In this document: in pieces, positions 4,423 to 25,651 of the stretch
Position numbering within the stretch: position 1 is the first letter of the stretch
How the letters are laid out: each line of letters begins with the position of its first letter
Source of the DNA: Sediminibacter sp. Hel_I_10
GTDB lineage: Bacteria > Bacteroidota > Bacteroidia > Flavobacteriales > Flavobacteriaceae
Direction of reading: 5' to 3'
DNA length: 64,000 nt
Assembly (NCBI RefSeq): GCF_000688335.1
Contig: NZ_JHZX01000001.1
Location: forward strand, 2,480,001-2,544,000
The notes under the pieces: model-generated
What the model saw: the letters and a program-made list of their open reading frames with translations, nothing else
What the model was told of the DNA's origin: nothing
Database searches by the model: none
Made by a program: the position numbers and the translations under genes

Positions 4423-4460
4423 CCATTGGTCGACAGTTAACCGTTAGTGGTCTATACAAA
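4423..4460 (+). promoter_or_regulatory. Tandem 21-bp-period motif, site 1 (putative LytTR regulator site)
   Basis: Two related words, CCATTGGTCGACAGTTA (4423-4439) and TTAGTGGTCTATACAAA (4444-4460), repeat at a period of 21 bp and share GGTC.A.A. They match the consensus CCATTSRTCTACAGTAA found at four other places in the window. The site ends 35 bp before the start of the signalling operon that encodes a LytTR response regulator, which suggests autoregulation. Unlike the other sites, no TTTG box is found 21-24 bp downstream; a CAATTTTG follows after only 2 bp, so the mode of action here may differ. The rest of 4215-4422 shows no gene. Confidence 0.6.
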
Positions 4461-4495
4461 AACAATTTTGGACGTAATATTAAATACAGAGGAAT

Positions 4496-4951
4496 ATGAT
4501 AGATTATATTTCAAAAGATCCAAAAAAACCCTCAGAAATGACTAAAGCATTAAAGATCCTTTTAATCGAAGATGACATGATAGAAGTGATGAAACTAAAT
4601 CGAGTTGTTTCCTCCCTTGAAATCAAACATCAAACCATTGAAGTAAATAATGGAGAAGAAGCCTTAAAGCACCTAGAGCAAAAGGACAATCTTCCAGATA
4701 TTATTCTGTTGGATTTGAACATGCCTAAGATCAATGGCATTGAATTTTTATCGATTCTTAAAAAGGATGAGCTTTTAAGATATATCCCCACCATCATCTT
4801 AACGACCTCCAATAATCAGAAGGATTTAGAGGAATGTTATAAAATTGGCGTTGCGGGTTACGTGTTAAAACCGTTAAAATACGAAGATTATGTATCTAAA
4901 ATTGAAAAATTATTAGCATATTGGAGTATTAATGAATTAAAGAAAATTTAA
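4496..4951 (+). CDS. Single-domain response regulator (receiver only, Rcp1-like)
   Basis: A 151-residue stand-alone receiver domain without output domain. The acidic pocket is EDD at residues 25-27, the phosphoacceptor Asp73 lies in LLDLNMP, the switch Thr in ILTTS, and the conserved Lys in VLKPLKYED. Such Rcp1-like receivers take phosphate from soluble histidine kinases and act by protein contact. The ATG at 4496 follows an AGAGGA sequence closely; an ATG at 4538 (MTKALKILLIEDD) is an alternative that would remove 14 unconserved residues. It is the first gene of the H-NOX/FIST signalling operon, and its stop shares a base with the H-NOX start codon (TAATG at 4949-4953). Confidence 0.9.
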   Translation: MIDYISKDPKKPSEMTKALKILLIEDDMIEVMKLNRVVSSLEIKHQTIEVNNGEEALKHLEQKDNLPDIILLDLNMPKINGIEFLSILKKDELLRYIPTIILTTSNNQKDLEECYKIGVAGYVLKPLKYEDYVSKIEKLLAYWSINELKKI

Positions 4952-5508
4952 TGAAAGGCATAGTTTTTACTGAATTTTTAGAGCTCGTAGAAGATAAGTT
5001 TGGTTTAGAGATGGTTGATACCATTATAGAACAATCTAATTTAGAATCTAATGGGGCTTATACTTCAGTAGGAACCTATCAGTTTTCAGAAATGTTACAA
5101 CTGCTCCAAAATCTAAGTGACAATACCGCTATTTCGGCCGATGATCTATTATTGGTCTATGGAGAACATTTTTTCTCAGTTATAGAAAAAAGTTATCCAA
5201 GTCTTTTAGCAACCTATCAGGATCCTATAGAGATGTTAGCCTCTATAGAAAATCATATTCATGTCGAGGTAAGAAAAATTTACCCAGATGCGGAATTACC
5301 TACATTTAAAACCTTGGAGAAAACAGAGAATTCATTAGTGATGATTTACCAATCCAGCAGAGCAATGCACCATTTTGGGTTGGGTTTAATGAATAAAACG
5401 TTTGATCACTTTAATGCAAAAGCCTCTATCGTTTTAGAGAAAATTAAAGCAGACGGCACTGAAGTCAAGTTTTTAATCAATAGGATCGATGAGTCAAAAT
5501 CAAATTGA
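4951..5508 (+). CDS. H-NOX haem-based nitric oxide sensor
   Basis: A 185-residue H-NOX (HNOB) protein, a cytoplasmic haem domain that binds nitric oxide and regulates a partner kinase or cyclase. It starts with the typical MKGIVFTEFLELVEDKFG. The proximal haem ligand is expected at His104 in HIHVEVRKIYPDA, and the haem-propionate motif YxSxR is present as Tyr133, Ser135, Arg137 (YQSSR). The length is normal for a stand-alone bacterial H-NOX. Its last 20 bp overlap the start of the PAS histidine kinase, the usual genetic signature of an H-NOX/kinase pair. No distal Tyr could be identified by eye, in line with an NO-selective rather than oxygen-binding form; this last point is inference. Confidence 0.93.
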   Translation: MKGIVFTEFLELVEDKFGLEMVDTIIEQSNLESNGAYTSVGTYQFSEMLQLLQNLSDNTAISADDLLLVYGEHFFSVIEKSYPSLLATYQDPIEMLASIENHIHVEVRKIYPDAELPTFKTLEKTENSLVMIYQSSRAMHHFGLGLMNKTFDHFNAKASIVLEKIKADGTEVKFLINRIDESKSN

Positions 5509-7465
5509 GATATTACAACGCGCTTTAAATAGAGAGAAAGCTGCTAGAAAAGAAGCAGAAAAAATATTAGAGCAAAAATCTACCCAATTATATGAGCTTA
5601 ACCAGAAGCTTGTTAAGTCTAATGAAGATCTTGCTATTCTTCTCGCTCAAACAAATTCTCAACTCCAAGGTGTTTTTGAGAATATTGTAGACGCATATGT
5701 TATCATCGATTTACAAGGAAACATCCTAAAGATGAACGATGCGGCAGTGTCTTTATTAGGTTTTGATGACCCTAAAGAAGATTTTAATCTTATGAAGATG
5801 GTAAGCCCGGGTGAAGAAGCCACTGTCCAACAGGCTTTTAAGGACTTGTTGACCAAGGGTGCAGCAACAGACCTAGAAATTCAAATTATTACCAAGCGCA
5901 AAGCGCGTAAACTGGTACATATTAATGCCAGCGTCATTTATGATGAGGGTATTGCCGTAGCTGCTCAAGGTATTGTAAGAGATATTACAAAAGATAAGGA
6001 GGCTGAAGAGAAGCTTATTGAGTCTGAAAACAGACTATCTACAGTAATACTTAATTTAGATAGTGGTACGCTCTTGGAAGATGAAGACCGAAAGATTGTT
6101 TTAACAAATAAAAAATTCTGCGAACTTTTTAATATTCCCGTATCTCCAGAGTTGTTAATAGGTCAAGATTGCTCTGAGTCTGCCGAGCAAACCAAATCGC
6201 TTTTTCAAGATCCTGAGGGGTTTGTAAAAGATGTCAATATGCTTATAAAAAACAAAACGCTTGTTTTAGGAGATGAGGTAAAAATGGTTTGTGGTAAAAT
6301 CCTGGAACGGGACTATATTCCCATTTTTAAAAAGGATGTTTATAAGGGGCACCTGTGGAGCTATAGAGATATTACGCTTAAGCGTAAATACCGAGAAAGT
6401 ATAGAAGCTCAAAAGCACAAATATTACAATATCATCTCTAACATGAACTTAGGCTTGGTTGAAGTGGATATGGATGATCGTATCATAATGGTTAACCAGA
6501 GTATGGTGAGCATGACTGGCTATTCTAAGGCAGAACTTATTGGTTTTAGGGGAAAAGATTTTTTACCATACGAAGGAGATAAAGAGGTTATTGAAGGCAA
6601 ACTTGAAAAACACCGAAAAGGAAAATCGGATTCTTACGAAGTGCGTATTAGAAACAAAGCAGGGCAGATAAGATATTGGTCGGTTAGTGGAGCGCCAAAT
6701 TATGATCTTAATGGCAATATTGTTGGGTATATAGGCATCAACTATGATATTACCGAAATTATAGAACTTCAAAATCAAAAAGAAAAACTTGTAAAAGAAC
6801 TCAAGAAAAATAATGACGAACTTCAAGAATATGCTCACGTTGTATCCCATGATTTAAAGTCTCCCTTGAGGAGTATCCATGCTTTGATCAGTTGGTTAAA
6901 AGAAGATAATGTTGGAAAACTAGATGAGACCAGCTTACGAAATATTGATCTTGTAGAAACAACCTTAGAAAAAATGGAACAGTTGATCACAGACATTCTA
7001 GATTATTCAAGCGTTGGAGCAGATGCTCGGGAGGCCGAAATGGTAAATATCAATGACTTGCTTCAGGATTTGATTAAAATACTATACGTTCCAGAGCATA
7101 TAGAAATCACGTTAATCAAAACGCTTCCAGAAATTCAAGGTAACAAGGCAAAATTGCAGCAATTATTTCAAAACTTGATTAGTAACGCGGTCAAGTTTTG
7201 TGATAAAGAAGAGGGGTTAATTGAAATTGATGTTTTAGAAAAAAAGAATTTTTATCAGTTTTCAGTCAAGGATAATGGGATGGGAATTGAAAAGAAATTT
7301 CATGATAAGATCTTTAAGATTTTTCATGCTTTAAATAAAAGTAAGGATTCTACGGGTATAGGATTATCGATTGTTAAGAAAATCGTCGACTTGCACGATG
7401 GTGATATTTGGTTGGAGAGTGAACCCAATGTGGGCACTACCTTTTATTTCACTTTAAAAAAATAA
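5489..7465 (+). CDS. Soluble PAS-domain histidine kinase (H-NOX partner)
   Basis: A 658-residue cytoplasmic sensor kinase with no membrane segment. It begins with a coiled coil (about residues 1-55, rich in Arg, Glu and Lys), then three PAS-like units (about 60-175, 180-300, 310-430, the last with a clear PAC motif). A second short coil leads to the dimerisation/phosphoacceptor box SHDLKSPLRSI with His454. The ATPase domain has the N box QNLISNAVKF, G1 VKDNGMGI and G2 STGIGLSIVKKIV. The overlap with the H-NOX gene makes H-NOX its likely input. The end of the gene is 2 bp from the FIST gene. Its kinase core closely resembles that of the second kinase in the operon, so the two probably share phosphotransfer partners. 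Confidence 0.92.
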   Translation: MSQNQIEILQRALNREKAARKEAEKILEQKSTQLYELNQKLVKSNEDLAILLAQTNSQLQGVFENIVDAYVIIDLQGNILKMNDAAVSLLGFDDPKEDFNLMKMVSPGEEATVQQAFKDLLTKGAATDLEIQIITKRKARKLVHINASVIYDEGIAVAAQGIVRDITKDKEAEEKLIESENRLSTVILNLDSGTLLEDEDRKIVLTNKKFCELFNIPVSPELLIGQDCSESAEQTKSLFQDPEGFVKDVNMLIKNKTLVLGDEVKMVCGKILERDYIPIFKKDVYKGHLWSYRDITLKRKYRESIEAQKHKYYNIISNMNLGLVEVDMDDRIIMVNQSMVSMTGYSKAELIGFRGKDFLPYEGDKEVIEGKLEKHRKGKSDSYEVRIRNKAGQIRYWSVSGAPNYDLNGNIVGYIGINYDITEIIELQNQKEKLVKELKKNNDELQEYAHVVSHDLKSPLRSIHALISWLKEDNVGKLDETSLRNIDLVETTLEKMEQLITDILDYSSVGADAREAEMVNINDLLQDLIKILYVPEHIEITLIKTLPEIQGNKAKLQQLFQNLISNAVKFCDKEEGLIEIDVLEKKNFYQFSVKDNGMGIEKKFHDKIFKIFHALNKSKDSTGIGLSIVKKIVDLHDGDIWLESEPNVGTTFYFTLKK

Positions 7466-7467
7466 TT

Positions 7468-8601
7468 ATGAAAGCAGTACAAGTTGTAAAACATAAAGAT
7501 CAAGATTGGCATTACGTTGGAGAACAACAGGACTTAAAAGCACCATTAGTATTGGTTTTTGGCAATAGATTGATGTTGGAAGATGCAAACATTTATAACG
7601 AGGTTAGGGCGTTTTTTCCTGAGGGTCATATCATATTTGCTTCGGCTTGCGCTGGGATTTCTTCAAATACGGTCAATGAGGAAAGTATTACAGTAACCGC
7701 AATTGAATTTGAAAAAAGCCAATTTCAAATTAAAACCAGTAATGTTCTCAATGCAGATCTAGACAGTTTTAAAACGGGCAGTGACTTGATCAAGCAATTT
7801 CCAGAAGAGGGATTGAGATATGTGTTTGTGGTTTCCGAAGGGAGTTTTATTAATGGAAGTCAGCTTACCAAAGGTATGAGTAGTGTAACCGAAGATAATT
7901 TATTGATCACCGGTGGTTTGTGTGGAGATGATACTCGCTTTGAAAAAACACTCGCCTCTTACAATGAAAACCCGAAAGAAGGAGAGTTAGTGGCCATTGG
8001 TTTTTACGGTGAGTCTTTAGAAATCACCTTTTCCATTCATGGTGGATGGACACCCTTTGGTCCAGAACGCATCGTTACAAAATCAAAAGGCAATACGCTT
8101 TATGAATTAGATGGTCAACCAGCATTAGATTTGTACAAAACCTATTTGGGAGATAAAGCAAAAGACCTGCCTGGAGCTGCGTTGCTATATCCTTTAAATG
8201 TCACTTCTGTAGATGAAACACAGTCTATTGTGAGATCCATTCTCAATATTGATGAAGTTGATAATGCCGTTATTTTAGCTGGAGATATTCCAGAACATTC
8301 TAAAGTACAACTCATGATGACCAATGTAGATAACATTGCAAACGCATCAGAAAGAGCTGCATCACAGGCGCTAGAATTTAGAAAAAACGATCCTGAAATA
8401 GCCATCTTGGTGAGTTGTATTGGCAGAAAATTAGTCTTGGACCAAAGGGTTGAAGAAGAAATTGAAGAGGTTATAGCAGTCATCGGTAATAAGGCGGTAA
8501 CTTGCGGCTTCTATTCCTACGGTGAAATTGCTCCGTTTCATGGTGAGGTAGCGTGTCAATTGCACAATCAGACCATGACCATAACCCTAATGAGCGAATA
8601 A
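7468..8601 (+). CDS. FIST domain sensor protein
   Basis: A 377-residue protein with FIST_N (about residues 25-215) and FIST_C (about 220-360) domains and no other domain. FIST modules are predicted small-ligand (amino-acid-like) sensors fused to or encoded beside signalling proteins. Family features include the early strand LVLVFGNRLMLED, the segment FASACAGISSNT, GLCGDDTRFEKT, the GWTPFGPERIVTKSKGNTLYELDGQPAL block at the domain junction, and the C-terminal CGFYSYGEIAPFHG. The protein is soluble, so it would act on the kinase encoded immediately downstream, whose ATG shares a base with this stop (TAATG). The actual ligand cannot be told. Confidence 0.92.
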   Translation: MKAVQVVKHKDQDWHYVGEQQDLKAPLVLVFGNRLMLEDANIYNEVRAFFPEGHIIFASACAGISSNTVNEESITVTAIEFEKSQFQIKTSNVLNADLDSFKTGSDLIKQFPEEGLRYVFVVSEGSFINGSQLTKGMSSVTEDNLLITGGLCGDDTRFEKTLASYNENPKEGELVAIGFYGESLEITFSIHGGWTPFGPERIVTKSKGNTLYELDGQPALDLYKTYLGDKAKDLPGAALLYPLNVTSVDETQSIVRSILNIDEVDNAVILAGDIPEHSKVQLMMTNVDNIANASERAASQALEFRKNDPEIAILVSCIGRKLVLDQRVEEEIEEVIAVIGNKAVTCGFYSYGEIAPFHGEVACQLHNQTMTITLMSE

Positions 8602-9665
8602 TGAATTCTTTGCTAAAACGTCAAATACGTAAATACTTAAGTGAAGATCTAAAAAACAAAGAAGAGCTCTCTGCGTTTATCAATGCCGTAGATCGCTCTT
8701 ATGATAATTATGATGAGCAATCTGCCATGATCCAAAGGGCCATGGGGATCAGTTCTGATGAATTATATACGGCTAACCAACAACTACGACAAGAAGCAAG
8801 AGCCCAACAAGAAGTTATTGATAAATTAAAACGGGTCATTAACACTTTAAAATTCTATAACCTTCCAGAACAAAAGACATCGGGACAGGTAGAACTTGAC
8901 GGACTCAAATTGGTGGAGTTTATCGACAATCAAACGAGAGAAATTATCGAAATCAATAAACAGAGCGAGAAATTGATGAGTGAACTTGCTCATCAAAACC
9001 AAGAGCTTAGTGATTATGCCCACATGGTATCCCATGATTTAAAATCGCCTTTAAGAAGTATCGATACCTTGACCACTTGGTTAAAAGACGATTATGCTGA
9101 TAAATTTGATGCCCACGGAAATGAGAGTCTCAAACTCATTAGAAACAATGTTGAAAAGATGGATAAGCTCATCAACGGCATCCTCGAATATTCTACTATA
9201 GGAAAAGCACAGTTGGAAGTTTATGATGTAGACGTAAATAAATTGGTCGATGAGATAGTAAAAATCATTCAAGTTCCAGATCATGTTACTGTAAACTATA
9301 TGGAGCTTCCTGTCATTAGAGGCGATAAATTTCGATTACAACAGCTCTTTCAAAATCTCATTACCAATGCCATTGCCTATAATGATAAAGACCAAGGTCT
9401 CATAGAGGTTGGCGTTAGTGAAACAGAATTCTGTTGGGAATTTTATGTTAAAGATAACGGCAAGGGTATCGATGAAGCTTATTTCAACAAAATATTTAAA
9501 ACCTTTGAAAAGCTCGAAACTACAGGTAACTCAACAGGTATAGGTCTGTCCATTGTCAAAAAAATTGTAGATGTATACGGCGGCAAGATTTGGCTTAATT
9601 CTGTAGTGGGAGAGGGGACTACTTTTTATTTCACACTAAAAAAACAACCCAATGGAAACGCCTAA
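8601..9665 (+). CDS. Soluble histidine kinase (FIST partner)
   Basis: A 354-residue cytoplasmic histidine kinase. The N-terminal 130 residues are helical and coiled-coil with no PAS domain. The phosphoacceptor box is SHDLKSPLRSI with His145, followed by QNLITNAIAY (N box), VKDNGKGI (G1) and STGIGLSIVKKIV (G2). An in-frame start exists at 8553, but the ATG at 8601 is preferred because it overlaps the FIST stop by one base, as at other junctions in this operon. Without its own sensor domain it probably reads the FIST protein. The 3' end overlaps the Hpt gene by 14 bp. Confidence 0.92.
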   Translation: MNSLLKRQIRKYLSEDLKNKEELSAFINAVDRSYDNYDEQSAMIQRAMGISSDELYTANQQLRQEARAQQEVIDKLKRVINTLKFYNLPEQKTSGQVELDGLKLVEFIDNQTREIIEINKQSEKLMSELAHQNQELSDYAHMVSHDLKSPLRSIDTLTTWLKDDYADKFDAHGNESLKLIRNNVEKMDKLINGILEYSTIGKAQLEVYDVDVNKLVDEIVKIIQVPDHVTVNYMELPVIRGDKFRLQQLFQNLITNAIAYNDKDQGLIEVGVSETEFCWEFYVKDNGKGIDEAYFNKIFKTFEKLETTGNSTGIGLSIVKKIVDVYGGKIWLNSVVGEGTTFYFTLKKQPNGNA

Positions 9666-9972
9666 CATGTCTTACATACACAGTATGTCTGGAGGAGATA
9701 AAGCCTTTGAAGCAAAAATTATCGGGATCATTAAAAGTGAATTTCCCGAAGAAAAACAAGTCTATGTAGATCAAATGTCTGCAGGTCAATTTAAACCTGC
9801 GTCAGAAAGCGTACATAAACTTAAACATAAAATTAGTATTTTAGGCCTAGAGAAGAGTTATGAAGTTGCAGTAGCCTTTGAAATGAATCTTTTGGAAGGG
9901 AGCACAGCCCGTCAAGATGAATTTGAAGCCATCTTAAGCAACATGACTCAATTTATAGAACGGCTTAACTAA
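9652..9972 (+). CDS. Histidine phosphotransfer (Hpt) domain protein
   Basis: A 106-residue stand-alone Hpt protein. The phosphorylatable His is His55 in VHKLKHKISILGL, which matches the family pattern HxLKxxxxxxG. It is all-helical by composition. Placed between two soluble kinases and a LytTR response regulator, it is the natural relay that collects phosphate and passes it to receivers at either end of the operon. Hpt partners normally need an upstream receiver; here that could be the single-domain regulator at the start of the operon. An alternative start at ATG 9667 (MSYIHSMSGGD) would remove five residues. Confidence 0.88.
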   Translation: METPNMSYIHSMSGGDKAFEAKIIGIIKSEFPEEKQVYVDQMSAGQFKPASESVHKLKHKISILGLEKSYEVAVAFEMNLLEGSTARQDEFEAILSNMTQFIERLN

Positions 9973-9977: not shown

Positions 9978-10688
9978 ATGAATTGTATTATTATTGATGA
10001 TGAGGCAACGGCCCGCGCCATTATCCATCAATTGTGCGCGCAGGAAGGTAGTCTTAATGTGGTTGAAGAGTTTCCAAATGCCATCCAGGCCATGAAATTT
10101 TTAAATCAAAATACTGTAGATCTCATTCTTTTAGACATTCACATGCCAGATTTTACGGGCTTTGATTTTATTGAAACACTCAAGAGTCCACCAAAGATCA
10201 TACTCACCACTTCAGATCCCAATTTTGCAATTCAAGCTTTTGAGTATGATTGTATTGTAGACTATTTGGTCAAGCCCATCACTCCAGAACGTTTTGAAAA
10301 GGCTATTGTAAAGGCCAATTCAAAAAGCATTGCAGCGCCGTCTTTCGAAGCCAACGAAAAGGTAGAAGTAAGCTCTGGTAATGATCTCTATGTTAATATC
10401 GATAGACGACTCATCAAAATAGACATTCCCAGTATTTATCTCATTGAGGCCAAGGGCGATTACATTAATGTCAAGACCGAAACGCAAAATTACACCGTAC
10501 ATTCTACCTTAAAAAAGATTGAAGATAAACTCCCAGACGAGTTGTTCTTAAAAGTACATCGCTCCTTCATCATCAACATTAAGAAAATTATAGATATTGA
10601 AGATAACAGTGTGCTCATCAAAAAAGATGTCATTCCTGTGAGTCGTTCTAATCGACCAGAGCTGATGAAACGTCTTAACTTATTGTAA
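9978..10688 (+). CDS. LytTR-family response regulator (LytR/AlgR type)
   Basis: A 236-residue DNA-binding response regulator. The receiver domain (about residues 1-118) has the DDE acidic pocket, phosphoacceptor Asp53 in LLDIHMPDFTGF, Thr in LTTSD and Lys in LVKPI. The LytTR domain (about 130-236) shows the family pattern IYLIEAKGDYINVKT, LKKIEDKLP, FLKVHRSFIINI and VIPVSRSNRPEL. LytTR proteins bind tandem 9-10-bp words about one helical turn apart (period 21-22 bp). Exactly such tandem words occur upstream of this operon and of the polysaccharide genes, so this is their best candidate regulator. It starts 5 bp after the Hpt gene and closes the operon. Confidence 0.94.
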   Translation: MNCIIIDDEATARAIIHQLCAQEGSLNVVEEFPNAIQAMKFLNQNTVDLILLDIHMPDFTGFDFIETLKSPPKIILTTSDPNFAIQAFEYDCIVDYLVKPITPERFEKAIVKANSKSIAAPSFEANEKVEVSSGNDLYVNIDRRLIKIDIPSIYLIEAKGDYINVKTETQNYTVHSTLKKIEDKLPDELFLKVHRSFIINIKKIIDIEDNSVLIKKDVIPVSRSNRPELMKRLNLL

Positions 10689-10691
10689 TTT

Positions 10692-10729
10692 CCATTCACC
10701 TACAGTAAAACTGCAACCATCGAAAATTA
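10692..10729 (+). promoter_or_regulatory. Tandem 21-bp-period motif, site 2, with -7 box
   Basis: CCATTCACCTACAGTAA (10692-10708) is followed 21 bp later by a weaker copy (10713-10729, containing CCATCGA). A Bacteroidota -7 box TACCTTTG lies at 10753-10760, 23 bp after the motif, so the motif takes the place of the -33 element, as for an activator that contacts RNA polymerase. The target is the DUF4114/T9SS gene starting at 10780. The LytTR regulator gene ends just upstream at 10688. Confidence 0.65.
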
Positions 10730-10779
10730 GAAAAAATAAGCGATGCTGAGGATACCTTTGTGATATAAATTTCAATATC

Positions 10780-16619: not shown

Positions 16620-16663
16620 ATCTGTTTGATTTGCTTGATTGCAAGTTAGGCACGAATTCCGCT

Positions 16664-16701
16664 TCATTCATCTACAGCAAACTGTCATCCGTCGAAATCA
16701 A
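16664..16701 (+). promoter_or_regulatory. Tandem 21-bp-period motif, site 3, in a divergent promoter region
   Basis: TCATTCATCTACAGCAA (16664-16680) and TCATCCGTCGAAATCAA (16685-16701) repeat at 21 bp. A -7-like box GATATTTG (16726-16733) follows after 24 bp, pointing at the STAS/flippase operon. On the other side the motif ends 45 bp from the start of the TPR/barrel gene, so one site could serve both divergent units. Confidence 0.65.
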
Positions 16702-16772: not shown

Positions 16773-17051
16773 ATGGCACTTAAAATTACACGTAACGAAA
16801 ACACATTTACATTAGAGGGACAAATTAACGCATGTACCGCGAGTAACTTTAAAACACACTTTATGTTAATGCTAAATTCTATGAGAGACATTACTATAGA
16901 TATTAGTAAGGTGACTGAAATTGATAGCAACGGTATGCATGCTATTAAGAGCGTCTATAACAATGCAACGTCATGGCATAAGCCCTTCTATATTATTGGA
17001 AATGGCTGTAAGGAAATTTTTCAAGATATCAGACCAAACTACGCTGCTTAA
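16773..17051 (+). CDS. STAS-domain protein (anti-sigma factor antagonist-like)
   Basis: A 92-residue STAS domain protein. The pattern of strands ITRNENTFTLEGQINA, ITIDISKVTEIDSNGMHAI and FYIIGN is that of SpoIIAA-like proteins. Ser52 in IDSNG sits where SpoIIAA is phosphorylated, so switching by a kinase is possible. The ATG at 16773 is chosen over 16719 because the conserved domain starts there and the upstream stretch contains the promoter elements. It is 26 bp upstream of the flippase gene. A paralogue at 29428 has Arg at the equivalent position. In this locus it may regulate a membrane transport or synthase component rather than a sigma factor; that is inference. Confidence 0.82.
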   Translation: MALKITRNENTFTLEGQINACTASNFKTHFMLMLNSMRDITIDISKVTEIDSNGMHAIKSVYNNATSWHKPFYIIGNGCKEIFQDIRPNYAA

Positions 17052-17077: not shown

Positions 17078-18325
17078 ATGCAAGCAATTTCAGTTAAAAT
17101 ACCAAAACGAATATCTCCAGAGCAAATGTTTATGCTAAGCGTTTTAGCAGTTAACGGTGGAAATTACTTGTATAACCTTATACTTGGCAGAATTCTAGGG
17201 CCAGAGCATTTTGCAGATGCTGCAGTGCTCATCACATTTTTATTGGTCTTGTCTTTTGTGGCCATGACTTTTCAATTGGTTACTGCAAAGTTTTCAGTTG
17301 AATTTGAAGATCACACTTTCCTTAGTTTCATCTCTAAAATCTATAAAAATGCCACCATTGTAGGTATTGGATTAGGTGTGCTGATTATAGCATTTTCAAA
17401 TCAATTGCAGCAGCTTTTTCATACCTCTTCATCAAGCATGTTTGTGATTTTTGGAATAGGCGTGCCACTTTATTTTTTAATGAGCGTGAATCGTGGTATT
17501 TATCAAGGGCAAAAATCCTTTAAAAATTTATCGATTACCTATCAAGCCGAAATGCTAAGTAGATTGGTAATCACTTTAGGATTGATTTTTTTATTTGACA
17601 TTCAATCTTCCGTAGTGATTGCTATAGGTATTTTGGTCTCTTTTGGTTTTGGTTTGATTCCTTTTAAGCTCAACTATTTTAAATTTAAAACTGTTGGACT
17701 TATAGAAGTTACCAAGTCTAAACAAGTGCGCAGCTTCTTTGTGATCACTGCGTTTTATGAACTTACCCAAATTATCATTAACAATAGTGACATCCTTTTG
17801 GTAAAGCACTATTTTGAATCTTATGATGCCGGATTGTATGCTTCATTAGCTTTAATAGGAAGGATCGTTTACTTTATAGCCTGGATGTTCGTTATGTTGT
17901 TATTGCCAACGGTCGTTCAGCTTAAAAAAGAAGGAAAGGCTACAGCGCCAATCTTGTTTAAATATGTAGGTTACATTGCTGCGATAGCTGCTGTTATTGT
18001 GTTGGGATGTGCCTTGTTCCCTGAAACAGGAATCACCCTGTTATTTGGAGAGCGCTATCTAGCCATGGCACCATTACTTTGGAAATATGCCTTAGCTACA
18101 GGGCTCTTTGCCATCTCAAACATTTTTGCTTATTACTACTTATCTCTTGATCATTATGTACCTGTTGTGTTTTCTGGTCTTTTTGGATTGCTACAAATGG
18201 GACTGGTCATCTTTTTCCACGAGAGTCTAGCGCAAGTCGTACACATGCAAATTGCAGCTATGTTTGCCTTACTTGTTTTTCAAATGATATACTTTATTTA
18301 CGATTCTAAATTGAAAGTCATTTAA
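17078..18325 (+). CDS. MOP-superfamily polysaccharide flippase/exporter
   Basis: A 415-residue integral membrane protein with about 12 hydrophobic segments in the MATE/Wzx arrangement. It opens with the family-like region LYNLILGRILGPEHFADAA, and the conserved SVNRGIYQGQKSF loop follows TM4. It resembles PelG and Wzx proteins that move lipid-linked or nascent sugar chains across the inner membrane. It is co-directional with the STAS gene upstream and is followed by a separate tandem motif before the GT4 gene, so the GT4 can be read both from this operon and from its own promoter. Confidence 0.85.
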   Translation: MQAISVKIPKRISPEQMFMLSVLAVNGGNYLYNLILGRILGPEHFADAAVLITFLLVLSFVAMTFQLVTAKFSVEFEDHTFLSFISKIYKNATIVGIGLGVLIIAFSNQLQQLFHTSSSSMFVIFGIGVPLYFLMSVNRGIYQGQKSFKNLSITYQAEMLSRLVITLGLIFLFDIQSSVVIAIGILVSFGFGLIPFKLNYFKFKTVGLIEVTKSKQVRSFFVITAFYELTQIIINNSDILLVKHYFESYDAGLYASLALIGRIVYFIAWMFVMLLLPTVVQLKKEGKATAPILFKYVGYIAAIAAVIVLGCALFPETGITLLFGERYLAMAPLLWKYALATGLFAISNIFAYYYLSLDHYVPVVFSGLFGLLQMGLVIFFHESLAQVVHMQIAAMFALLVFQMIYFIYDSKLKVI

Positions 18326-18345
18326 GCAAAATCGAAACCTTTATT

Positions 18346-18383
18346 CCATTGGTCTACAGTAAAAAGCATTCCGTCTACATTGG
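18346..18383 (+). promoter_or_regulatory. Tandem 21-bp-period motif, site 4
   Basis: CCATTGGTCTACAGTAA (18346-18362) and CATTCCGTCTACATTGG (18367-18383) share GTCTACA at exactly 21-bp spacing. A -7-like CAAATTTG (18408-18415) follows 24 bp later, and the GT4 start codon lies 29 bp beyond it at 18445. This is the clearest internal promoter of the polysaccharide locus. Confidence 0.7.
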
Positions 18384-18444
18384 CCAATTTTAATGCAACT
18401 TATTGCCCAAATTTGTACCGAACCCCATATTAAACTTAAAGAAA

Positions 18445-19677
18445 ATGAAACTAGCAATTGTAACAGCATATCCGCCAAGTAAAGTAACCTTAAACGAATA
18501 TGCATATCATTTAGTAAAACATTTTAGACAACAAGATGCCGTAACCGAAGTGGTGTTGTTAACCGATAAAACCGAAGGTGCAAAAGACATCACCTTTACC
18601 GAAGACGGTTGTAAGATTACGGTTAAGGAATGTTGGGCCTTCAATAGTTACGCTAATATTGTAAATGTAACTAAGGCTATTAATACCGTTGCGCCAGATG
18701 CCGTATTGTTTAATTTACAGTTTATGAAGTTTGGCGATAAGAAAATTGCAGCAGCGCTAGGATTGATGTTGCCATTGGTGTGTAAATTAAAGCGCATCCC
18801 TAACATCGTGTTATTACATAATATCTTAGAGGAAGTCGATCTAGAGTCGGCTGGTTTTACCTCAAATAAATTAATGCAAAAACTATATGGTTTTATAGGC
18901 ACCACCTTAACCAAATTGATTTTACAGGCCGATACTGTGGCGGTGACCATGCAAAAGTATGTGAACATTTTAGAGCAAAAGTACAATGCTAAGAATGTCA
19001 CTTTAATTCCGCACGGTACTTTTGAAATTTCTGAAGTTACTCCCAACTATAGTATCCCAGAAGGGCCTTTACAGGTAATGACCTTCGGAAAATTTGGAAC
19101 CTACAAAAAAGTAGAGTCCATGATAGAAGCGGTAGAAAAAGTAAGAGCATCTACAGGTCTTGACCTAGAGGTTGTTATTGCGGGTACCGATAATCCCAAC
19201 GTACCTGGGTATTTGGCCAAAGTACAAGAAGATTATAAGCATGTACCACAAGTGCTTTTTACGGGCTACGTTGAAGAATTTGAAGTGCCAATTTTATTTA
19301 ATGAAAGTGCTGTGGTGGTATTTCCGTATACCTCTACAACAGGCAGTTCTGGCGTATTGCACCAGGCGGGGAGTTACGGTAAAGCTGTAGTCATGCCAGA
19401 TTTGGGCGATTTAGCGCTGTTAGTACAAGATGAAGGATATAAAGGAGAGTTTTTTGACCCAACCTCTGTAACTAGTTTGGCGAGTGCCATTGAGGCTATT
19501 GTTACTAACGATGCACACCGTATTGCTCTGGGAAAAGCAAATTACGAAGCTGCAACAGCGTATCCTATGGAAAAAATTACAGGTATGTATCTAGAACATT
19601 TTAAGGCGATTATCTCTAGTAAATCGCCTCAAAAAGACGTGGTTTTAGAGTCGTCTACTGTCCAGAAATATATTTAA
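18445..19677 (+). CDS. Glycosyltransferase family 4 protein
   Basis: A 410-residue GT-B fold glycosyltransferase. The N-terminus MKLAIVTAYPPSKVTLNEYA is the usual acceptor-domain opening. The donor domain contains VMTFGKFGTYKKVESMIEAV, VVIAGTDNPN, FTGYVEEFEVPILFNESAVV and the loop TTGSSGVLHQAGSYGKAVV in place of the classic EGFG motif. A longer frame opens at 18403, but the ATG at 18445 is the natural start because the -7 box lies at 18408-18415. It probably adds a sugar in assembly of the exported polymer. The last 23 bp overlap the tail of the convergent GH5-like gene. Confidence 0.87.
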   Translation: MKLAIVTAYPPSKVTLNEYAYHLVKHFRQQDAVTEVVLLTDKTEGAKDITFTEDGCKITVKECWAFNSYANIVNVTKAINTVAPDAVLFNLQFMKFGDKKIAAALGLMLPLVCKLKRIPNIVLLHNILEEVDLESAGFTSNKLMQKLYGFIGTTLTKLILQADTVAVTMQKYVNILEQKYNAKNVTLIPHGTFEISEVTPNYSIPEGPLQVMTFGKFGTYKKVESMIEAVEKVRASTGLDLEVVIAGTDNPNVPGYLAKVQEDYKHVPQVLFTGYVEEFEVPILFNESAVVVFPYTSTTGSSGVLHQAGSYGKAVVMPDLGDLALLVQDEGYKGEFFDPTSVTSLASAIEAIVTNDAHRIALGKANYEAATAYPMEKITGMYLEHFKAIISSKSPQKDVVLESSTVQKYI

Positions 19678-21172
19678 AGGACTCCTTTTTTTCGCCTTCA
19701 GCATTGATAAAGCCAAAATGCTTTTGAGCATTTTTTCGCCAAGGAAGTCTCCCAACGACTTCCTTTGGTATTTCAGTAAAATCGTATAAAGTCCAAGACA
19801 TAAATTGCAAATCGTTATTTGCAATGATTTCTTGGACTTTTTTGTGGTAATTGGCCTGATCTTCGGTTGAAGATCCAAACGGTTTCCAAAAACCACTGTA
19901 GGAGGACATTCCAAATTCCTGAAGTACTAAAGGTTTATTGGGGATGTCTTTTCGCATGGCTTTTACAGCGGCATCCAAACCTTGGAGGTCTTCATAATAG
20001 TGAAACGAGATCAGGTCTAATTGGTCTTTTAAAATGGTTGCACTTTGGGTGTTAGACCATCCTATGGTTATTGGATGCGCAGCGTCTATGGATTTTACAT
20101 GATGAATCATATTTTCAAGCCAAGACACTACATTTGATTTTCCGCGAGAGTCAAAATCTAAATTGGGTTCGTTTTTAATGTCCCAAGCTATAAGCGCTTT
20201 GTGGTCTTTAACGGCATTGATCACGATTTCGGCATGGCGCATATTCAAGGTCCAATCTAAAACCGAATAATCCCCATAAAAATCAAAGAGTGTAATAACG
20301 GCGTCGAGATTATTCGCTTCTGCAGCATCTAAGGTTTGCTTTAATTTTTCAAGTTTATCTGGGCGTACCTCGGCTTTTCCGAAGTCTTCATAAGGCACAA
20401 ATAAACGCACCGAAGTTAGACCCGCTTCTTTAATGATCTTGAAATCTCGAGCAATAGTATCTTTTGAAAAGTTATCGCCATACATGTCCCAAGGCGAGGC
20501 TTGCGGATAGTAATTGATTCCCTTAATGTTAAGACCATTTGTAGCAACGGCATTATTTTCTGCTTGATAAGCCTCTGTTGCCATTTTTACAAAATGCCTG
20601 ATCCGCCAAAACCCATCTTCAAGCAACATGATGATCTTATAAGTGCTCATTTCCGTAGTTTCTAAAACCAATTGCTTGTCCTTAAACACGCGCTTGTACT
20701 CCACAACATCACGGTCTGTGATTACCACTAACTGTCCGTCTTCACTAAAAAACTCCAATGTAGGATGGTGTGCTAAAGTAGTAGACTCTACCGTGACATT
20801 TTTGGCAGTATTATCTTCAATAAAATTGTATAAATTAGTTCTGGCATTATCGGTGTAATAATCCTTGATGCCTTTTGTGGTATTGGTTTTATAAGCTACA
20901 TGTTTAACATACCAAGCGTCTAGGTAGTCATTTTCTATGGCGTTGAGGTTTTCTTCGTCAATCGGTCTGCCCTCGTTGGTTAGTGGGCTCCAAATCATAT
21001 CAGGCAGGTATTGCTCTACTTTTTTAATTTCGGTATGTAGCATGGCGCTTCGGTCTGCTCCAGTATTTAAATATCCAAACAGCGCGCTAACACCAGAAAT
21101 AATTAAGGCTATGATCATAATATATGAGGCAATTAAAATGGTACGCAGTATGTTTTTGTTAAGACCTACCAT
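19655..21172 (-). CDS. Membrane-anchored GH5-like glycoside hydrolase with NTF2-like domain
   Basis: A 505-residue protein with an N-terminal membrane anchor (about residues 9-31), an NTF2-like region (about 75-190) and a GH5/clan A TIM-barrel (about 210-500). The acid/base Glu335 is in IKNEPN and the nucleophile Glu419 in VLQEFGMSSYSG; the strand SVRLFVPYEDFG and the WSNTQS and ISFHYYEDL segments fit the clan. Hydrolases of this kind in polysaccharide loci (compare PelA and BcsZ) trim the polymer in the periplasm. It is the last gene of a three-gene minus-strand operon and overlaps its upstream neighbour by 7 bp. Confidence 0.82.
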   Translation of the reverse strand: MVGLNKNILRTILIASYIMIIALIISGVSALFGYLNTGADRSAMLHTEIKKVEQYLPDMIWSPLTNEGRPIDEENLNAIENDYLDAWYVKHVAYKTNTTKGIKDYYTDNARTNLYNFIEDNTAKNVTVESTTLAHHPTLEFFSEDGQLVVITDRDVVEYKRVFKDKQLVLETTEMSTYKIIMLLEDGFWRIRHFVKMATEAYQAENNAVATNGLNIKGINYYPQASPWDMYGDNFSKDTIARDFKIIKEAGLTSVRLFVPYEDFGKAEVRPDKLEKLKQTLDAAEANNLDAVITLFDFYGDYSVLDWTLNMRHAEIVINAVKDHKALIAWDIKNEPNLDFDSRGKSNVVSWLENMIHHVKSIDAAHPITIGWSNTQSATILKDQLDLISFHYYEDLQGLDAAVKAMRKDIPNKPLVLQEFGMSSYSGFWKPFGSSTEDQANYHKKVQEIIANNDLQFMSWTLYDFTEIPKEVVGRLPWRKNAQKHFGFINAEGEKKESFKYISGQ

Positions 21173-22386
21173 AGCGTTCTGTTATTGAAAGTTTTTGTGA
21201 GTCCTGCTGTTTTTACTATGATGTCATACCTGTCTTTCTTTAGAACATCGGGTTTGAGATAGAAATTAGCAAAACCATTAATTGAGGTGTTGGACCAAGT
21301 TTCTAAAAGCGTTCCGTCTTTATACACAAGAAGTTTCACCTGCAGCCCGTCGGGGATCATTTGTTGCATAAAACTTTGTAGAGGTCCAACATTTATGGTT
21401 CTATTGTCTTTTGAAAATGCCACATTAAATTCTGTAATGACTTGTTTGTAACTAATAGATAGGGTGTTGCTTTCTGCCATACCTTCTACGAAAGATTTTA
21501 TAGACCATTGGGTGTCGTGATCTGGATGGATAATTTTAGAGGTGGCAATACCATCTACAGTAGTTCCAGAGGTCTTCAAAACATTACCATTGGGCGTGGT
21601 TATAAAAAAGTCAACAAAAGTTCCATCACTTATAATATTGTTCTGTTTATCCTTAATGATGGTCGTTGTGAAGGTGGTCATTTGATTGCCATCTGCATAA
21701 TCATGTGGGCGTGTTGCGGAAATTTTAAAATCGGTTGGTATGGCTGGAAATACGTTAATAACGAACTCTTTGGAGTTGTGTTTTAAACTTTCCGAAGAAA
21801 CCAACATCCGGCCGCTTTCTCGTTTTGAAAACATATTTTTATAAGCGATGAGATGTTCCGTAAAGATCACCTCAGAGGTCTCGGATTTTAAAAATTGATG
21901 TTTAGCGGTAACTGCTGTGTTCTCGGGTAGGGGATTATCTAAAGAATCGGTTGGGATGACGACGAGCATGGTATAATCGGTTCCCCCAGCTTCAATACTC
22001 GGTGGGCCAATGTAGGTTTCTAAAGAGCTCACTTGCCGTAATGGTTGTATTTCAAATTGTCCTGAAAGGGGAGAGCCCCCGTTTAAAAGCGTCCACTGTA
22101 CCTTGCCCAGTTTTTTGCTAATGTGTTTAGGGATTTCGTAAGACAAGGTGTTGTTATTGAGTGTAGGAGGTATTAAGGTAGAACCATAACTGTTGGCACA
22201 ATATAAATCGGGTTGCGAATTCCCCGAGGTTGAAAATTTTAATACAATACGGTGGCTGGCCTCAAACTGAGTTTGTGTGGTTATGAGTTGTATAGCATCA
22301 ACAGTATCCAGTTCTTGAATAGTAGCAAATGAGGATACCATCAACAAAATGAGGAGGTAGCGGTATGTTTGTTTTAGTAATTTCAA
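21166..22386 (-). CDS. Secreted protein with Ig-like (Big-type) repeats
   Basis: A 406-residue exported protein with a signal peptide (hydrophobic about residues 8-22) and then beta-sandwich modules. The block from about residue 215 to 310 (FKISATRPHDYADGNQMTTF and the following strands, ending GIATSKI) has the look of a Big_1/invasin-like domain. The central region near residue 135-215 is similar in style. No catalytic motif is seen. It sits between the GH5-like hydrolase and the large membrane protein, overlapping both by a few bases, so the three act together, probably as a periplasmic or outer-membrane scaffold of the polysaccharide machinery. Exact role not known. Confidence 0.65.
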   Translation of the reverse strand: MKLLKQTYRYLLILLMVSSFATIQELDTVDAIQLITTQTQFEASHRIVLKFSTSGNSQPDLYCANSYGSTLIPPTLNNNTLSYEIPKHISKKLGKVQWTLLNGGSPLSGQFEIQPLRQVSSLETYIGPPSIEAGGTDYTMLVVIPTDSLDNPLPENTAVTAKHQFLKSETSEVIFTEHLIAYKNMFSKRESGRMLVSSESLKHNSKEFVINVFPAIPTDFKISATRPHDYADGNQMTTFTTTIIKDKQNNIISDGTFVDFFITTPNGNVLKTSGTTVDGIATSKIIHPDHDTQWSIKSFVEGMAESNTLSISYKQVITEFNVAFSKDNRTINVGPLQSFMQQMIPDGLQVKLLVYKDGTLLETWSNTSINGFANFYLKPDVLKKDRYDIIVKTAGLTKTFNNRTLW

Positions 22387-25300
22387 TTTGGGCTGCCGAT
22401 GTACACGTTAGTTTCTATTTTAATATAGCTAAAATCTGGATGTTTGATGGGTTGCAAGACAGAGTTGCTATGATTCATAATCCGGTTGGGCACTATTTTA
22501 TCTGAAATAGGAGTGTTTGGAAGCCCGTTGACAAAAATGTTTTCCATGCTGTTATTGATGGTCTCAACAGCGCTATGATACGGAATTTGATATTCAAAAT
22601 CTTGTTTACGTTGTTGCCTCACACCTTCCTTCACGAACATATGATCTACCCAAATCATGTTTTTGTTTTCATCAAAATACGTAATCAGAAGTTGGGGAAT
22701 GGTGATCTCCTGAAGCCCGCTATTAAATAAATGTCCCTCAACAACCGTTTCACTGACGTTTAAATCGCTGATCACGATATTCTTATATAAATCTGATCCC
22801 GAAACATTTCCCGCAGCTTGAAGGTTAAATTTAGTGGGTTGCTCTTCAAATTCTATTGGTGTAAACTCATCTGGATTAAAGGTGTCGGGAATAGAGTCTT
22901 TGGTTTTTGACCAAGCAATCCCTTCAAAATTGATTTTAAAGGCGGTAGTTTCTTTAGGCATTAATTTATGCTTTACATGATATTTGGCGTTGTAGGTGGC
23001 CAATTCTTTATTATCATCATTATATAAAGTCCCTTTGAGTACCACATCTGCAGGAACGTTGTCTATATTTTGGATGTTGCCAATAATGGCATAGTGACCA
23101 TCATATTTAACAAGCTTGGCAGAAAGTACCTCAAGAACAGGTTGCTTTAAAACGTCTTCATGATGAGTTTGTTCTGTGGTAATGCGTCGTCTACCTTGAT
23201 TAAAATAAGCGGTCACATTATCTGAATAGAGTTGATCTGGCGGCAAGTCGTTGTCAAAATCTTCTGGTTCTATATACCATTTTCCACGTTTTTTGGTGAG
23301 TGATTTATATTCGGCTTTACTAATTTTCTCCAAAGGTGTAATCCACTTGGTATCTACTCTTATTGTAGCTAGGCTATCGTTTTGGTGCAGTATGGTAGTT
23401 TCAATGGCATCTAGTTTGGCATAGCTGCTTAAAAGACCATCGGTTACAGAAACCTCCAGCATGTATTGTGCAATGGTCAAGTCACTTTCGGGATTCACTA
23501 AGCTGAAAGCGGTTTCAAATTCTTTAAAATCCAACGCGTCATAATAGGCTATGATGGCGTTTTCTGGACTGCGTTGCGAATCATTTTTAAGGTAAAACAA
23601 ATAAAATCCATAACTAAAAACAACGGCTAAGATCAAGAACCAGATGTGTGTGATTCTAAGTATTGTTCTTGAAAACTTGGTATAGTTATTTTGAAATTTT
23701 AGAAAGTCTGGAGCTTTTTTGATTTTTGTTTTTAAGGCATTGACCCACAGCATTTGAATGTTTAAAACAAAAGCAATCAGCACGGTTAAAAACGGCATTA
23801 TGCCCCAAAGTATTTTTTGCCATTTAGACACATCGTCTTTGGGTAGAATCGAAGAGACTGGTGGCACGTTTAAACGCTCCCAAACCATAATGCCATTTTC
23901 TAATTGTCTTAAGCGTTGCCATCCGCAGAAATAGAGAATGGGATCATAAAATTTATCGTTAGAAAAGATGTACTTGAGATTATACTTTTCTGGGGTGGTT
24001 AGAAACTGCTGCAAGGAGCCAATACCTGCAACGCCCTTAAATTTAGAATTTTCTAAGCGCTCAATAGGCCTTGTGGTTAATTCGGGAAGGCGTCTGGCAG
24101 AATGATAATTGCCATCAACGGTCATGGCATTGGTCTGTGCGCTTAGCCATGCCATTTGGTCTCCAAAACCTAAGGTTAAGAATCGCCATTTATCATGATC
24201 ATCTTGATTGAGAAAATTAACAATGGGCAACATCTTTATTTTTTGTGGCTGAGATGGTCTAAAATATCCCAGACTCATCGTGAAAATGGTCATAAAGACA
24301 AAAAGGCCTGCGAGAATGCCTCCAGAAATTCTATGGTAGATGGCTCCAAATCGAGTTTGAATCAACGTTTTTAAGTCGCCTTGTACAAAGCGATAAGTAA
24401 ATTCACCCAACAGCGGTAAGGACATGATGGAGGCCCAAAGTGTAAAACGGTCTAAGGTGAGAATATTAAAAGCTGTTTCGCCCAAAATCTTTAATGGGAT
24501 TGGCGTTGTTCCACCAGTTCCTAAAACGGTTAAGATGGTCATGGACAAACCAAAAAACAAATAGCGTTTGCTGTAATATCTATAAAATATATAAGGGAGT
24601 AAAATGAGTAACACACCCCAAGGGATAAGAAAGAACACTAATCCCGACGACGTGATCTCTAGAAAATTATCTCTTGAGCCGTGCGGAATAGGAACTTGGG
24701 TAATGGGGTTAGCCTTAGAGTTGATCCAGTAGGGAAGAATACAACCCACAATAATCATTAAAGACAATAGTCCAAAACTTAAAATACGCTTAAATAGCTT
24801 GAGGAAGCTATCGATAAAAACCCTAAACGTCACGGCTTTCATTGTGTCTACTTTTTCACGAGAAACATCCATGATCACCGTGCCAATCAATGGAAAGATA
24901 AAAAAGACCATCCCAAATATGGGTGTCACATGGTGGGAGGTTACCGTAACAGAGATTAAGGAGAGCGAGGTCGCCAAATACCAATACCTACCGGTTTTTA
25001 GCCACAGGTATATTTCTGGTAAAGAGTGCATTAATACAGAAATCCCTATAATGCTTGGCAATTGGCCAAATACATGTAATGTTTCTACAAAAGACGATGA
25101 AAATACGGCTAGCAAAGCCGCATAGCCTGCAGCTGTTTTATTACTGGTTATTAATAAGGAGAACCTGTAGACCCCTGTTATAAATAAAACAATACTAATA
25201 AGTGCCACCGTAAACATCCCGAATTTTAAACCACCAATAAGGGAAAACAATCCGATGGACTGATGCACTAGCGGCGGATAGCTCATCACGGTAAAGCCGG

Positions 25301-25472
25301 TGTACCACTCATAGTTCCAAGGCTCAAACCAACTATGCGCATAATGGTCTGCAAAAAATAAATGAATCAACGCATCATAGGTGGTTTCCAAAGTAAAAAA
25401 AATGGAAGTTCCATGAAATGCCAATCCTAAAAGGAGAGCGCCAATTAAATATTTATTTGTGGTTTCTTTCAT
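22383..25472 (-). CDS. Large multi-pass membrane protein, GT-C/PTPS-related type
   Basis: A 1029-residue protein. The first 430 residues hold about ten membrane helices with motifs such as WFEPWNYEWYTGFTVMSYPP and TSHHVTPIFG, the pattern of the family labelled 6-pyruvoyl-tetrahydropterin-synthase-related, a GT-C-like membrane glycosyltransferase group. Two more helices are near 575-600 and 640-660, and the last 350 residues form an extracytoplasmic region with FN3-like strands. An in-frame start exists at 25532, but this codon lies inside the tandem regulatory motif; the ATG at 25472 (MKETTNKYL), immediately before the first helix, is therefore chosen. It probably makes or extends the polymer. 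It leads the three-gene minus-strand operon. Confidence 0.75.
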   Translation of the reverse strand: MKETTNKYLIGALLLGLAFHGTSIFFTLETTYDALIHLFFADHYAHSWFEPWNYEWYTGFTVMSYPPLVHQSIGLFSLIGGLKFGMFTVALISIVLFITGVYRFSLLITSNKTAAGYAALLAVFSSSFVETLHVFGQLPSIIGISVLMHSLPEIYLWLKTGRYWYLATSLSLISVTVTSHHVTPIFGMVFFIFPLIGTVIMDVSREKVDTMKAVTFRVFIDSFLKLFKRILSFGLLSLMIIVGCILPYWINSKANPITQVPIPHGSRDNFLEITSSGLVFFLIPWGVLLILLPYIFYRYYSKRYLFFGLSMTILTVLGTGGTTPIPLKILGETAFNILTLDRFTLWASIMSLPLLGEFTYRFVQGDLKTLIQTRFGAIYHRISGGILAGLFVFMTIFTMSLGYFRPSQPQKIKMLPIVNFLNQDDHDKWRFLTLGFGDQMAWLSAQTNAMTVDGNYHSARRLPELTTRPIERLENSKFKGVAGIGSLQQFLTTPEKYNLKYIFSNDKFYDPILYFCGWQRLRQLENGIMVWERLNVPPVSSILPKDDVSKWQKILWGIMPFLTVLIAFVLNIQMLWVNALKTKIKKAPDFLKFQNNYTKFSRTILRITHIWFLILAVVFSYGFYLFYLKNDSQRSPENAIIAYYDALDFKEFETAFSLVNPESDLTIAQYMLEVSVTDGLLSSYAKLDAIETTILHQNDSLATIRVDTKWITPLEKISKAEYKSLTKKRGKWYIEPEDFDNDLPPDQLYSDNVTAYFNQGRRRITTEQTHHEDVLKQPVLEVLSAKLVKYDGHYAIIGNIQNIDNVPADVVLKGTLYNDDNKELATYNAKYHVKHKLMPKETTAFKINFEGIAWSKTKDSIPDTFNPDEFTPIEFEEQPTKFNLQAAGNVSGSDLYKNIVISDLNVSETVVEGHLFNSGLQEITIPQLLITYFDENKNMIWVDHMFVKEGVRQQRKQDFEYQIPYHSAVETINNSMENIFVNGLPNTPISDKIVPNRIMNHSNSVLQPIKHPDFSYIKIETNVYIGSPN

Positions 25473-25531
25473 GCTTTGGTAAGACCAATTTAATAAAGTA
25501 AAGGTAAATAATTGAGACAGGTACACATTCA

Positions 25532-25569
25532 TTAATCATCTACAGTAATCTACCATTCATCTACACTAA
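25532..25569 (+). promoter_or_regulatory. Tandem 21-bp-period motif, site 5, in a divergent promoter region
   Basis: TTAATCATCTACAGTAA (25532-25548) and CCATTCATCTACACTAA (25553-25569) give the best repeat pair in the window, with 12 of 17 positions identical at 21-bp spacing. A -7-like CAATTTTG (25591-25598) follows 21 bp later, and TAATTTTG at 25614-25621 is a second candidate, both pointing at the receiver-GT2 gene. On the other side the site lies 60 bp from the start of the minus-strand operon at 25472. Confidence 0.72.
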
Positions 25570-25651
25570 TGGTTTGATTGCCTAAATATCCAATTTTGAA
25601 GCATCAATCCCGCTAATTTTGACCCAACGAAAACATTAAAACACCCCAATT

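Follow-up and report, generated by a model that had tools for sequence, protein, structure and literature searches.

Tandem sites with a 21-bp period link an H-NOX/LytTR signalling operon to a polysaccharide locus in Sediminibacter sp. Hel_I_10 and are probable LytTR operators

Introduction

LytTR operators are described as pairs of 9-bp repeats placed 10-13 bp apart, or as triples for RcoM1 and CoxC, which are mostly located upstream of the -35 element and are activating (PMC11347149). In LytTR Regulatory Systems (LRS), the repeats are 11-13 bp apart, close to the -35 element, and autoregulatory (PMC6193735). In this study, we analysed a stretch of 64,000 bp from Sediminibacter sp. Hel_I_10 (NCBI RefSeq GCF_000688335.1, contig NZ_JHZX01000001.1, positions 2,480,001 to 2,544,000), referred to here as the window, in which tandem copies of an 18-bp word precede both a signalling operon, encoding an H-NOX haem sensor and a LytTR regulator, and the genes of a polysaccharide locus. 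Judging from the sequence, these sites are likely activator operators of the operon's LytTR regulator, which would stand at the end of a kinase-receiver-HPt-LytTR relay, autoregulate this relay and drive the polysaccharide genes. One switch probably governs the genes of the gas-sensing chain and those of a cell-surface sugar polymer.

The locus resembles several described systems. AgrA and HdrR/BrsR are LytTR proteins for which autoregulation and tandem direct repeats, spaced by about 21 bp and placed upstream of the promoter core, are reported (PMC4227749, PMC6193735), whereas the present sites consist of an 18-bp word with a frequent third copy at a TAnnTTTG-type promoter, with input predicted to come from gas sensors through a four-step relay. 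RcoM1 and CoxC share with the present system a LytTR domain, three direct repeats and a link to a diatomic gas (PMC11347149), but their sensor and LytTR domain are fused and serve CO (carbon monoxide) oxidation, whereas here the sensors are separate proteins with a relay between. In Vibrio fischeri, the nitric oxide (NO) sensor H-NOX acts through an HPt domain (SypF-HPt) on the syp exopolysaccharide regulon; FIST genes near hnox, and the NO sensor NosP as a FIST family member, are noted in the same article (PMC8738867). The V. fischeri system differs from the present one in phylum. NO-bound H-NOX (Shewanella, Vibrio cholerae) and NosP (V. cholerae) are described as inhibiting the partner kinase that feeds a phosphorelay, a theme that the present locus would share; the outputs described for those networks are cyclic di-GMP enzymes or LuxU/LuxO, whereas here the output would be a LytTR protein. 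The output regulator of syp is of another type than LytTR, and we know of no LytTR repeats at syp.

Results

The first-pass annotation of the window had listed five tandem pairs with an exact 21-bp period. All five were recovered at those places with exactly this period, which lies inside the 19-22 bp range of LytTR direct repeats (9-bp repeats 10-13 bp apart). A position weight matrix (PWM) was built from the half-sites, and each pair was scored with itself left out of its own matrix. No window position on either strand (training pairs masked) outscored any of the five pairs, and no position in 4 Mb of first-order Markov DNA reached any of them. A search for the doubled consensus word with up to three mismatches gave no match; such a plain-word search is too strict because the second half-sites diverge. 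Subsequently, a model trained on the window's five pairs alone (R1), which provides an independent test in relatives, was applied to the 4,106,053-bp one-contig genome. The five pairs were the top five matches, with expect values (E) of 2e-7 to 6e-6 (150 of the 835 first-look candidates were scored), and the next matches were found at genome positions 795964 (E 0.008), 2402249 (E 0.010) and 417925 (E 0.04). The pairs thus stood out both in the whole genome and against random DNA, as the annotation had proposed to check.

All sites lie on the plus strand. Site 1, at the promoter of the signalling operon (4422..4460), has two strong half-sites and a third copy at about 4464-4481 (CGTAATAT); the annotation gave no -7-like box here, and a box, TATATTTC at 4505-4512, sits at the conserved 44-nt offset. 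Site 2 (10691..10729) lies ahead of the DUF4114 gene and is followed after 23 nt by the box TACCTTTG (10753-10760). Site 3 (16663..16701), ahead of the STAS-Wzx genes, and site 4 (18345..18383), ahead of the GT4 gene and with a weak extra copy at 18324, each have a box after 24 nt (GATATTTG at 16726-16733 and CAAATTTG at 18408-18415, respectively). Site 5 (25531..25569), ahead of the receiver-GT2 gene, has a third copy at 25573-25590. The boxes quoted in the annotation for sites 2-5 are present, but at site 5 relatives keep TAATTTTG at 25614-25621 (44 nt) instead of the quoted CAATTTTG at 25591. The set of five was also incomplete: a sixth 21-bp pair, site 0 (4217..4255; 20.1 bits by a PWM whose training set did not contain it), is followed by a weak third copy (4259-4276) and the box TAACTTCG (4300-4307). 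Site 0 was matched with E 0.0026 by a second model, R2, whose training had included it; R2 was built from 78 of 91 sites, after manual removal of 13 that were duplicates or out of register.

In seven of eight relatives examined, site 0 lies upstream of a gene for a protein of 93-127 aa, which had no Pfam match (one protein scanned). This gene is missing in the window and in genome G016, where the gap between sites 0 and 1 is 205-240 bp, compared with 408-510 bp where it is present.

The match at 795964 is a probable unlinked site of the same motif. It has a box at 23 nt, genes for a multi-PAS kinase and a receiver lie downstream, and its R2 E-value is only 0.14. Because the site precedes these genes, the relay may enlist a further sensor, as suggested by one genome and a modest E-value. 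The match at 2402249 was taken as chance: the expected distances hold no -7 box, and the only open reading frame (ORF) downstream of it in the same direction is a 123-aa frame overlapping a synthetase gene. A leucyl-tRNA synthetase ORF (L025:4747-8166; genome positions about 2398746-2402165) carries a DUF559 domain at residues 322-424, just ahead of the editing domain. The match at 417925 was rejected as lying within a 908-aa ORF, and an R2 match at 161447 (E 0.048) as having no box.

The promoter anatomy was examined in 30 regions of relatives and the window's own, using the window-trained matrix on the plus strand at >=16 bits. Typically ahead of the same genes, 108 sites were found. In 66 of them, a box nAnnTTTG begins at a distance of 23, 24, 44 or 45 nt from the pair, which places these sites just upstream of the predicted promoter core; its mean frequency would give 1.06 such boxes. 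The remaining offsets between 0 and 100 gave 16 boxes in total. The 44/45 class corresponds to the 23/24 class plus one 21-bp period. In the former, a weaker third half-site with the core CGAAA adjoins the predicted promoter; in the latter, the second copy, which has TCGAAAT, stands in that place. Such a weaker third copy, 21 bp beyond the second, occurs at many sites. No conserved -33 word was seen at the sites of this sample. The core of the 18-bp word is approximately CCATTCRTCTACAstAA, recurring every two helical turns.

A further 72 named loci (eight of 80 were dropped as already used) gave 210 sites at >=18 bits in 71 of the loci, of which 208 were on the strand of the LytTR operon and 128 had a box. 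As a control, the period of the paired model was varied: the period of 21 gave 164 positions at >=24 bits, and nine other periods gave 0-17. Furthermore, at four promoters (13-23 rows each), identity between genomes was 54-88% in the half-sites, 37-47% in the 3-nt spacer and 28-57% in the upstream flank; because rows were picked for their site scores, the values for the half-sites are somewhat inflated, whereas the contrast inside the pair is not.

We then compared the distribution of the motif with that of the LytTR gene. Among 97 genomes of relatives including the own one (orthologue at E <1e-84, the next match having E 2e-71; motif at R1 E <=0.01), the motif was present in 22 of 26 carriers of the orthologue and in 0 of 71 non-carriers. 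The R1 matches in this sample numbered 51, and 46 of them lay on the contig of the orthologue within about 26 kb; two were on short contigs with locus genes in the broken assembly G018, and three were elsewhere (860762 in G031, and 795964 and 2402249 in the own genome). In a family sample of 299 genomes (carriers at E <=1e-75, motif at R1 E <=0.005), the motif was found in 77 of 124 LytTR carriers versus 2 of 175 others, and the gene for the TPR protein of the polysaccharide locus in 87 of 124 versus 1 of 175; carrier counts were read off match lists by hand, and the non-carriers of the family sample were obtained by subtraction. The two exceptions are G216, where a LytTR match of 67% identity, below the carrier cut-off, lies beside relay genes, and G154, where the motif match is on a 5.5-kb contig that carries the receiver-GT2 end of the locus and a site with a box. 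Matches of R2 (E <=0.01) were obtained in 19 of 19 carriers versus 2 of 38 others, a count that is no independent test because R2 was trained on sites of the same genomes. The R2 matches in the non-carriers G025 and G059 were rejected as they had no box, and three ORFs near that of G059 had no Pfam family. Taken together, these sequence data agree with the annotation in that the motif is genuine, specific to the locus and common to the signalling operon and the polysaccharide genes, which it joins.

Orthologues of the LytTR protein 78% identical to that of the window, with sites, were also seen in L253 and L255, from a Saprospiraceae metagenome-assembled genome (MAG) and Portibacter lacus (Saprospirales). 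These orthologues outside the family would reflect horizontal transfer or mixed assemblies.

Genomes in which the locus and the relay are split separate the partners of the motif. According to match lists, the TPR gene is on another contig than the LytTR gene, or far off, in 13 genomes. In five (G024, G148, G188, G317 and G342), the polysaccharide locus lies apart from an intact relay and keeps sites. G148 is a complete genome on one contig, with 2.28 Mb between locus and relay one way and 1.76 Mb the other; the remaining four are drafts with the locus on another contig than the relay. Some of the kept pairs have a box at a conserved distance in G148, G317, G188 and G342. Sites are also kept in G184, G299 and G340, but contig breaks could explain the separation there, and G335 is a mixed case. 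In G033, G208, G257 and G355, genes for the receiver, H-NOX, PAS kinase, FIST, second kinase and HPt adjoin the polysaccharide locus without the LytTR gene. The locus in these four genomes has no pair on the gene strand at >=16 bits and none at >=13 bits with a box (none >11 in G033); one 17-bit pair occurs on the opposite strand in G355. Upstream of the sensor genes, a single 17-bit pair was found, at a distance of 1.8 kb from the receiver gene of G033. The same four genomes have a second receiver-LytTR pair elsewhere, whose promoter sites score 29-38 bits. In the split genomes, the sites thus follow the LytTR regulator, not the sensors or the polysaccharide genes.

Sites were also observed before other genes. 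No TPR gene was found genome-wide in G022 and G056, yet sites precede other genes there; likewise, several of the 72 named loci have sites before other genes, and this polysaccharide locus was not seen within the stretch examined. Ten proteins from site-bearing regions of relatives were scanned for families. The families found were UDP-glucose dehydrogenase, receiver, DUF4842 and outer-membrane efflux-type protein, together with a phosphoribosyltransferase domain and a Wzy-like ligase domain; one protein had a GNVR (Wzz-like) match under the cut-off, and two downstream proteins, as well as the small protein of site 0, had no family.

The signalling operon, on the plus strand, begins with a single-domain receiver (4538..4951; Response_reg), for which the ORF call at 4496 is probably too long, starts in relatives corresponding to 4538. 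It is followed by the H-NOX (HNOB) gas sensor (4951..5508; PF07700, E 1.4e-40), a PAS histidine kinase (5489..7465), a FIST_N/FIST_C sensor (7468..8601) and a second histidine kinase (8553..9665), the last three assigned by domain search and the sensor only as a member of the FIST family. A 106-aa HPt-like phosphotransfer protein with the motif VHKLKHKI (9652..9972; PF01627, E 0.0011, under the curated cut-off) precedes the receiver-LytTR response regulator (9978..10688), the proposed binder of the sites, which matches PF04397 with 75.8 bits (E 3.3e-21; cut-off 22.6) and PF00072 with 71.4 bits (cut-off 30.2). Residues that we take to be the phospho-acceptors are conserved in at least 97% of the aligned rows: D73 of the receiver (numbered on the long ORF; 97 rows), H55 of HPt (98 rows) and D53 of the LytTR protein (100 rows). 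In H-NOX, H102, Y133 and S135 are conserved in at least 97% and R137 in at least 90% of 91 rows; these are presumably the proximal haem histidine and the YxSxR motif.

The operon was counted in 94 cases, three loci with the operon cut off being skipped and six regions (including G033) having been set aside beforehand. Receiver, kinase, HPt and LytTR matches were present in 94 of 94 and are the constant core of the operon; since each of the two kinase queries also matches genes of the other kinase, this count is no proof of two kinases in each. H-NOX was present in 90 and FIST, scored down to 24% identity, in 56.

Downstream, site 2 is followed by the gene for a DUF4114 protein with a type IX secretion system (T9SS) sorting tail (10780..13242, plus strand; PF13448, PF18962). 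The polysaccharide locus contains, on the minus strand, a TPR protein weakly similar to the export porin PgaA (14556..16667; TIGR03939 with E 4.4e-10 and 38 bits, against a cut-off of 367), and, on the plus strand, a STAS protein (16773..17051; PF01740), a Wzx-like polysaccharide flippase (17078..18325; PF01943) and a GT4 glycosyltransferase (18445..19677; PF13692, PF00534). A glycoside-hydrolase-like protein (19655..21172, minus strand; PF02836) has partial matches to GH158 and GH5 structures. A 1049-aa protein (22383..25532, minus strand) had no Pfam, NCBIfam or solved-structure match and accompanies the rest of the locus in relatives. A receiver domain fused to a GT2 glycosyltransferase follows (25652..26845, plus strand; PF00072, PF00535), whose DINM motif contains a D51 conserved in at least 90% of 24 rows; the fusion points to a possible direct control of polymer synthesis by the phosphorelay. 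A phosphomannose-isomerase-like protein is also encoded on this side, and the label polysaccharide locus is given from these protein families (TPR, STAS, Wzx-like, GT4, glycoside-hydrolase-like, receiver-GT2 and phosphomannose-isomerase-like). The STAS and GT4 genes probably start at the ATG codons at 16773 (not 16719) and 18445, respectively; with these starts and that at 4538, all shifted downstream, the boxes fall outside coding sequence.

Discussion

The annotation had pointed to the LytTR protein encoded at 9978-10688, and this protein is the likeliest binder of the sites, as indicated by the co-occurrence, the unlinked and split cases, and a spacing that agrees with published LytTR sites. 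Pairs and triples of the 18-bp word would be its operators. A -7 box resembling TAnnTTTG lies 23-24 bp beyond the end of the promoter-proximal copy (core TCGAAAT), which occupies the position expected for a -33 element; we therefore infer that the regulator is most likely an activator. Phosphate would pass from the kinases, which stand beside H-NOX and often FIST, to the single-domain receiver, to HPt and to the LytTR protein, which would then act on transcription. The regulator would activate its own operon in a positive feedback, and also the promoters of the exopolysaccharide locus and the gene for the T9SS-tailed protein. Control of this regulon by NO is plausible, given the frequency of H-NOX and FIST in the operons. 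If the system behaves like those of Vibrio and Shewanella, NO binding to H-NOX or FIST would reduce the activity of the kinases and thereby of the regulon; this sign is expected because the NO-bound H-NOX proteins of those genera and NosP of V. cholerae inhibit their kinases.

Three other explanations were considered. The words could merely reflect common ancestry, dispersed repeats or chance, and the relatives indeed share ancestry; however, the 4 Mb of simulated DNA held nothing comparable, conservation forms islands at the half-sites, nearly all sites share one strand, the box stands at fixed distances, quite different genes are preceded by sites, and a random spread of equal pairs over the genome was not seen. 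We give this explanation practically no weight. It is also rather improbable that another regulator binds the sites and the operon's LytTR gene is just nearby. The genome has ten LytTR genes, and LytTR domains bind similar words, so that one of the nine others would be the candidate. However, LytTR relatives with about 35-40% identity are common also in genomes free of the motif, the motif follows the operon's orthologue and stays with it in the split genomes, and stretches of 16-17 kb around the nine other genes contain no pair >12 bits.

A more serious, although still unlikely, alternative is that the sites are LytTR operators but serve repression or mainly autoregulation, with a signal other than NO. 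CoxC, a LytTR protein, is described as repressing from three repeats overlapping the -35 element; moreover, not every operon contains H-NOX and FIST, and the first kinase also has PAS domains. The distance of 23-24 bp between the proximal copy and the -7 box, together with the lack of a conserved -33 word, fits activation better. Activation by the operon's own LytTR protein is the reading we prefer.

Several observations weigh against this reading. Among the family carriers, 47 of 124 had no match at the strict cut-off and filter, of which G024, G148 and G317 have weaker pairs at polysaccharide promoters on direct reading. Some polysaccharide promoters are without a scored site: G317 has none ahead of GT4, nor any in the promoter region of the operon that was read, and in G335, with the locus on a different contig, a box-less pair ahead of receiver-GT2 is the only one, Wzx and GT4 having none. 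The link between sites and locus is not universal, since four split genomes have no sites at sensors or locus. Fisher values for the co-occurrence overstate independence because the genomes share ancestry. In the period control (72 loci, L192-L270), a period of 17 gave 17 positions at >=24 bits, compared with 0-6 for the other eight off-periods. Of the relay, the conservation of phospho-residues covers the receiver, HPt and LytTR proteins. Finally, 38 of the 94 operons have no FIST and 4 have no H-NOX, so that the wording of the first-pass annotation, an NO/FIST-driven switch, was too strong; the chain of receiver, kinase, HPt and LytTR is constant.

A broader picture, which we offer tentatively and with more doubt than confidence, is that of a modular flavobacterial control head. 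Its fixed core would be the receiver, HPt and LytTR with promoters of two or three copies, combined with exchangeable sensors (H-NOX, FIST, PAS kinases) and exchangeable exopolysaccharide loci; where carriers do not have this locus, the sites in some of them precede a different polysaccharide cluster (UDP-glucose dehydrogenase, Wzy-like, weakly Wzz-like and outer-membrane proteins). The receiver-GT2 protein would take phosphate from the same HPt. If this is true, one gas-sensing relay sets transcription and enzyme activity together.

The annotation had regarded such a switch for a Bacteroidota exopolysaccharide as new. Because the connection from H-NOX through HPt to exopolysaccharide is already reported for V. 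fischeri syp, the new part is confined to the regulator type, the phylum and the promoter design. A search of titles and abstract openings in the open-access literature found no publication on LytTR as the output of an H-NOX relay in Bacteroidota.

These findings provide a testable regulon for a surface polysaccharide of marine flavobacteria, in which the regulator, sites, promoters and candidate gas sensors are named. They also offer an exact promoter design, in repeat spacing and distance to the -7 box, for LytTR activators under Bacteroidota sigma factors. If the proposed mechanism is true, NO-controlled matrix production, so far a matter of Proteobacteria, would extend to Bacteroidota, where it uses another output device.

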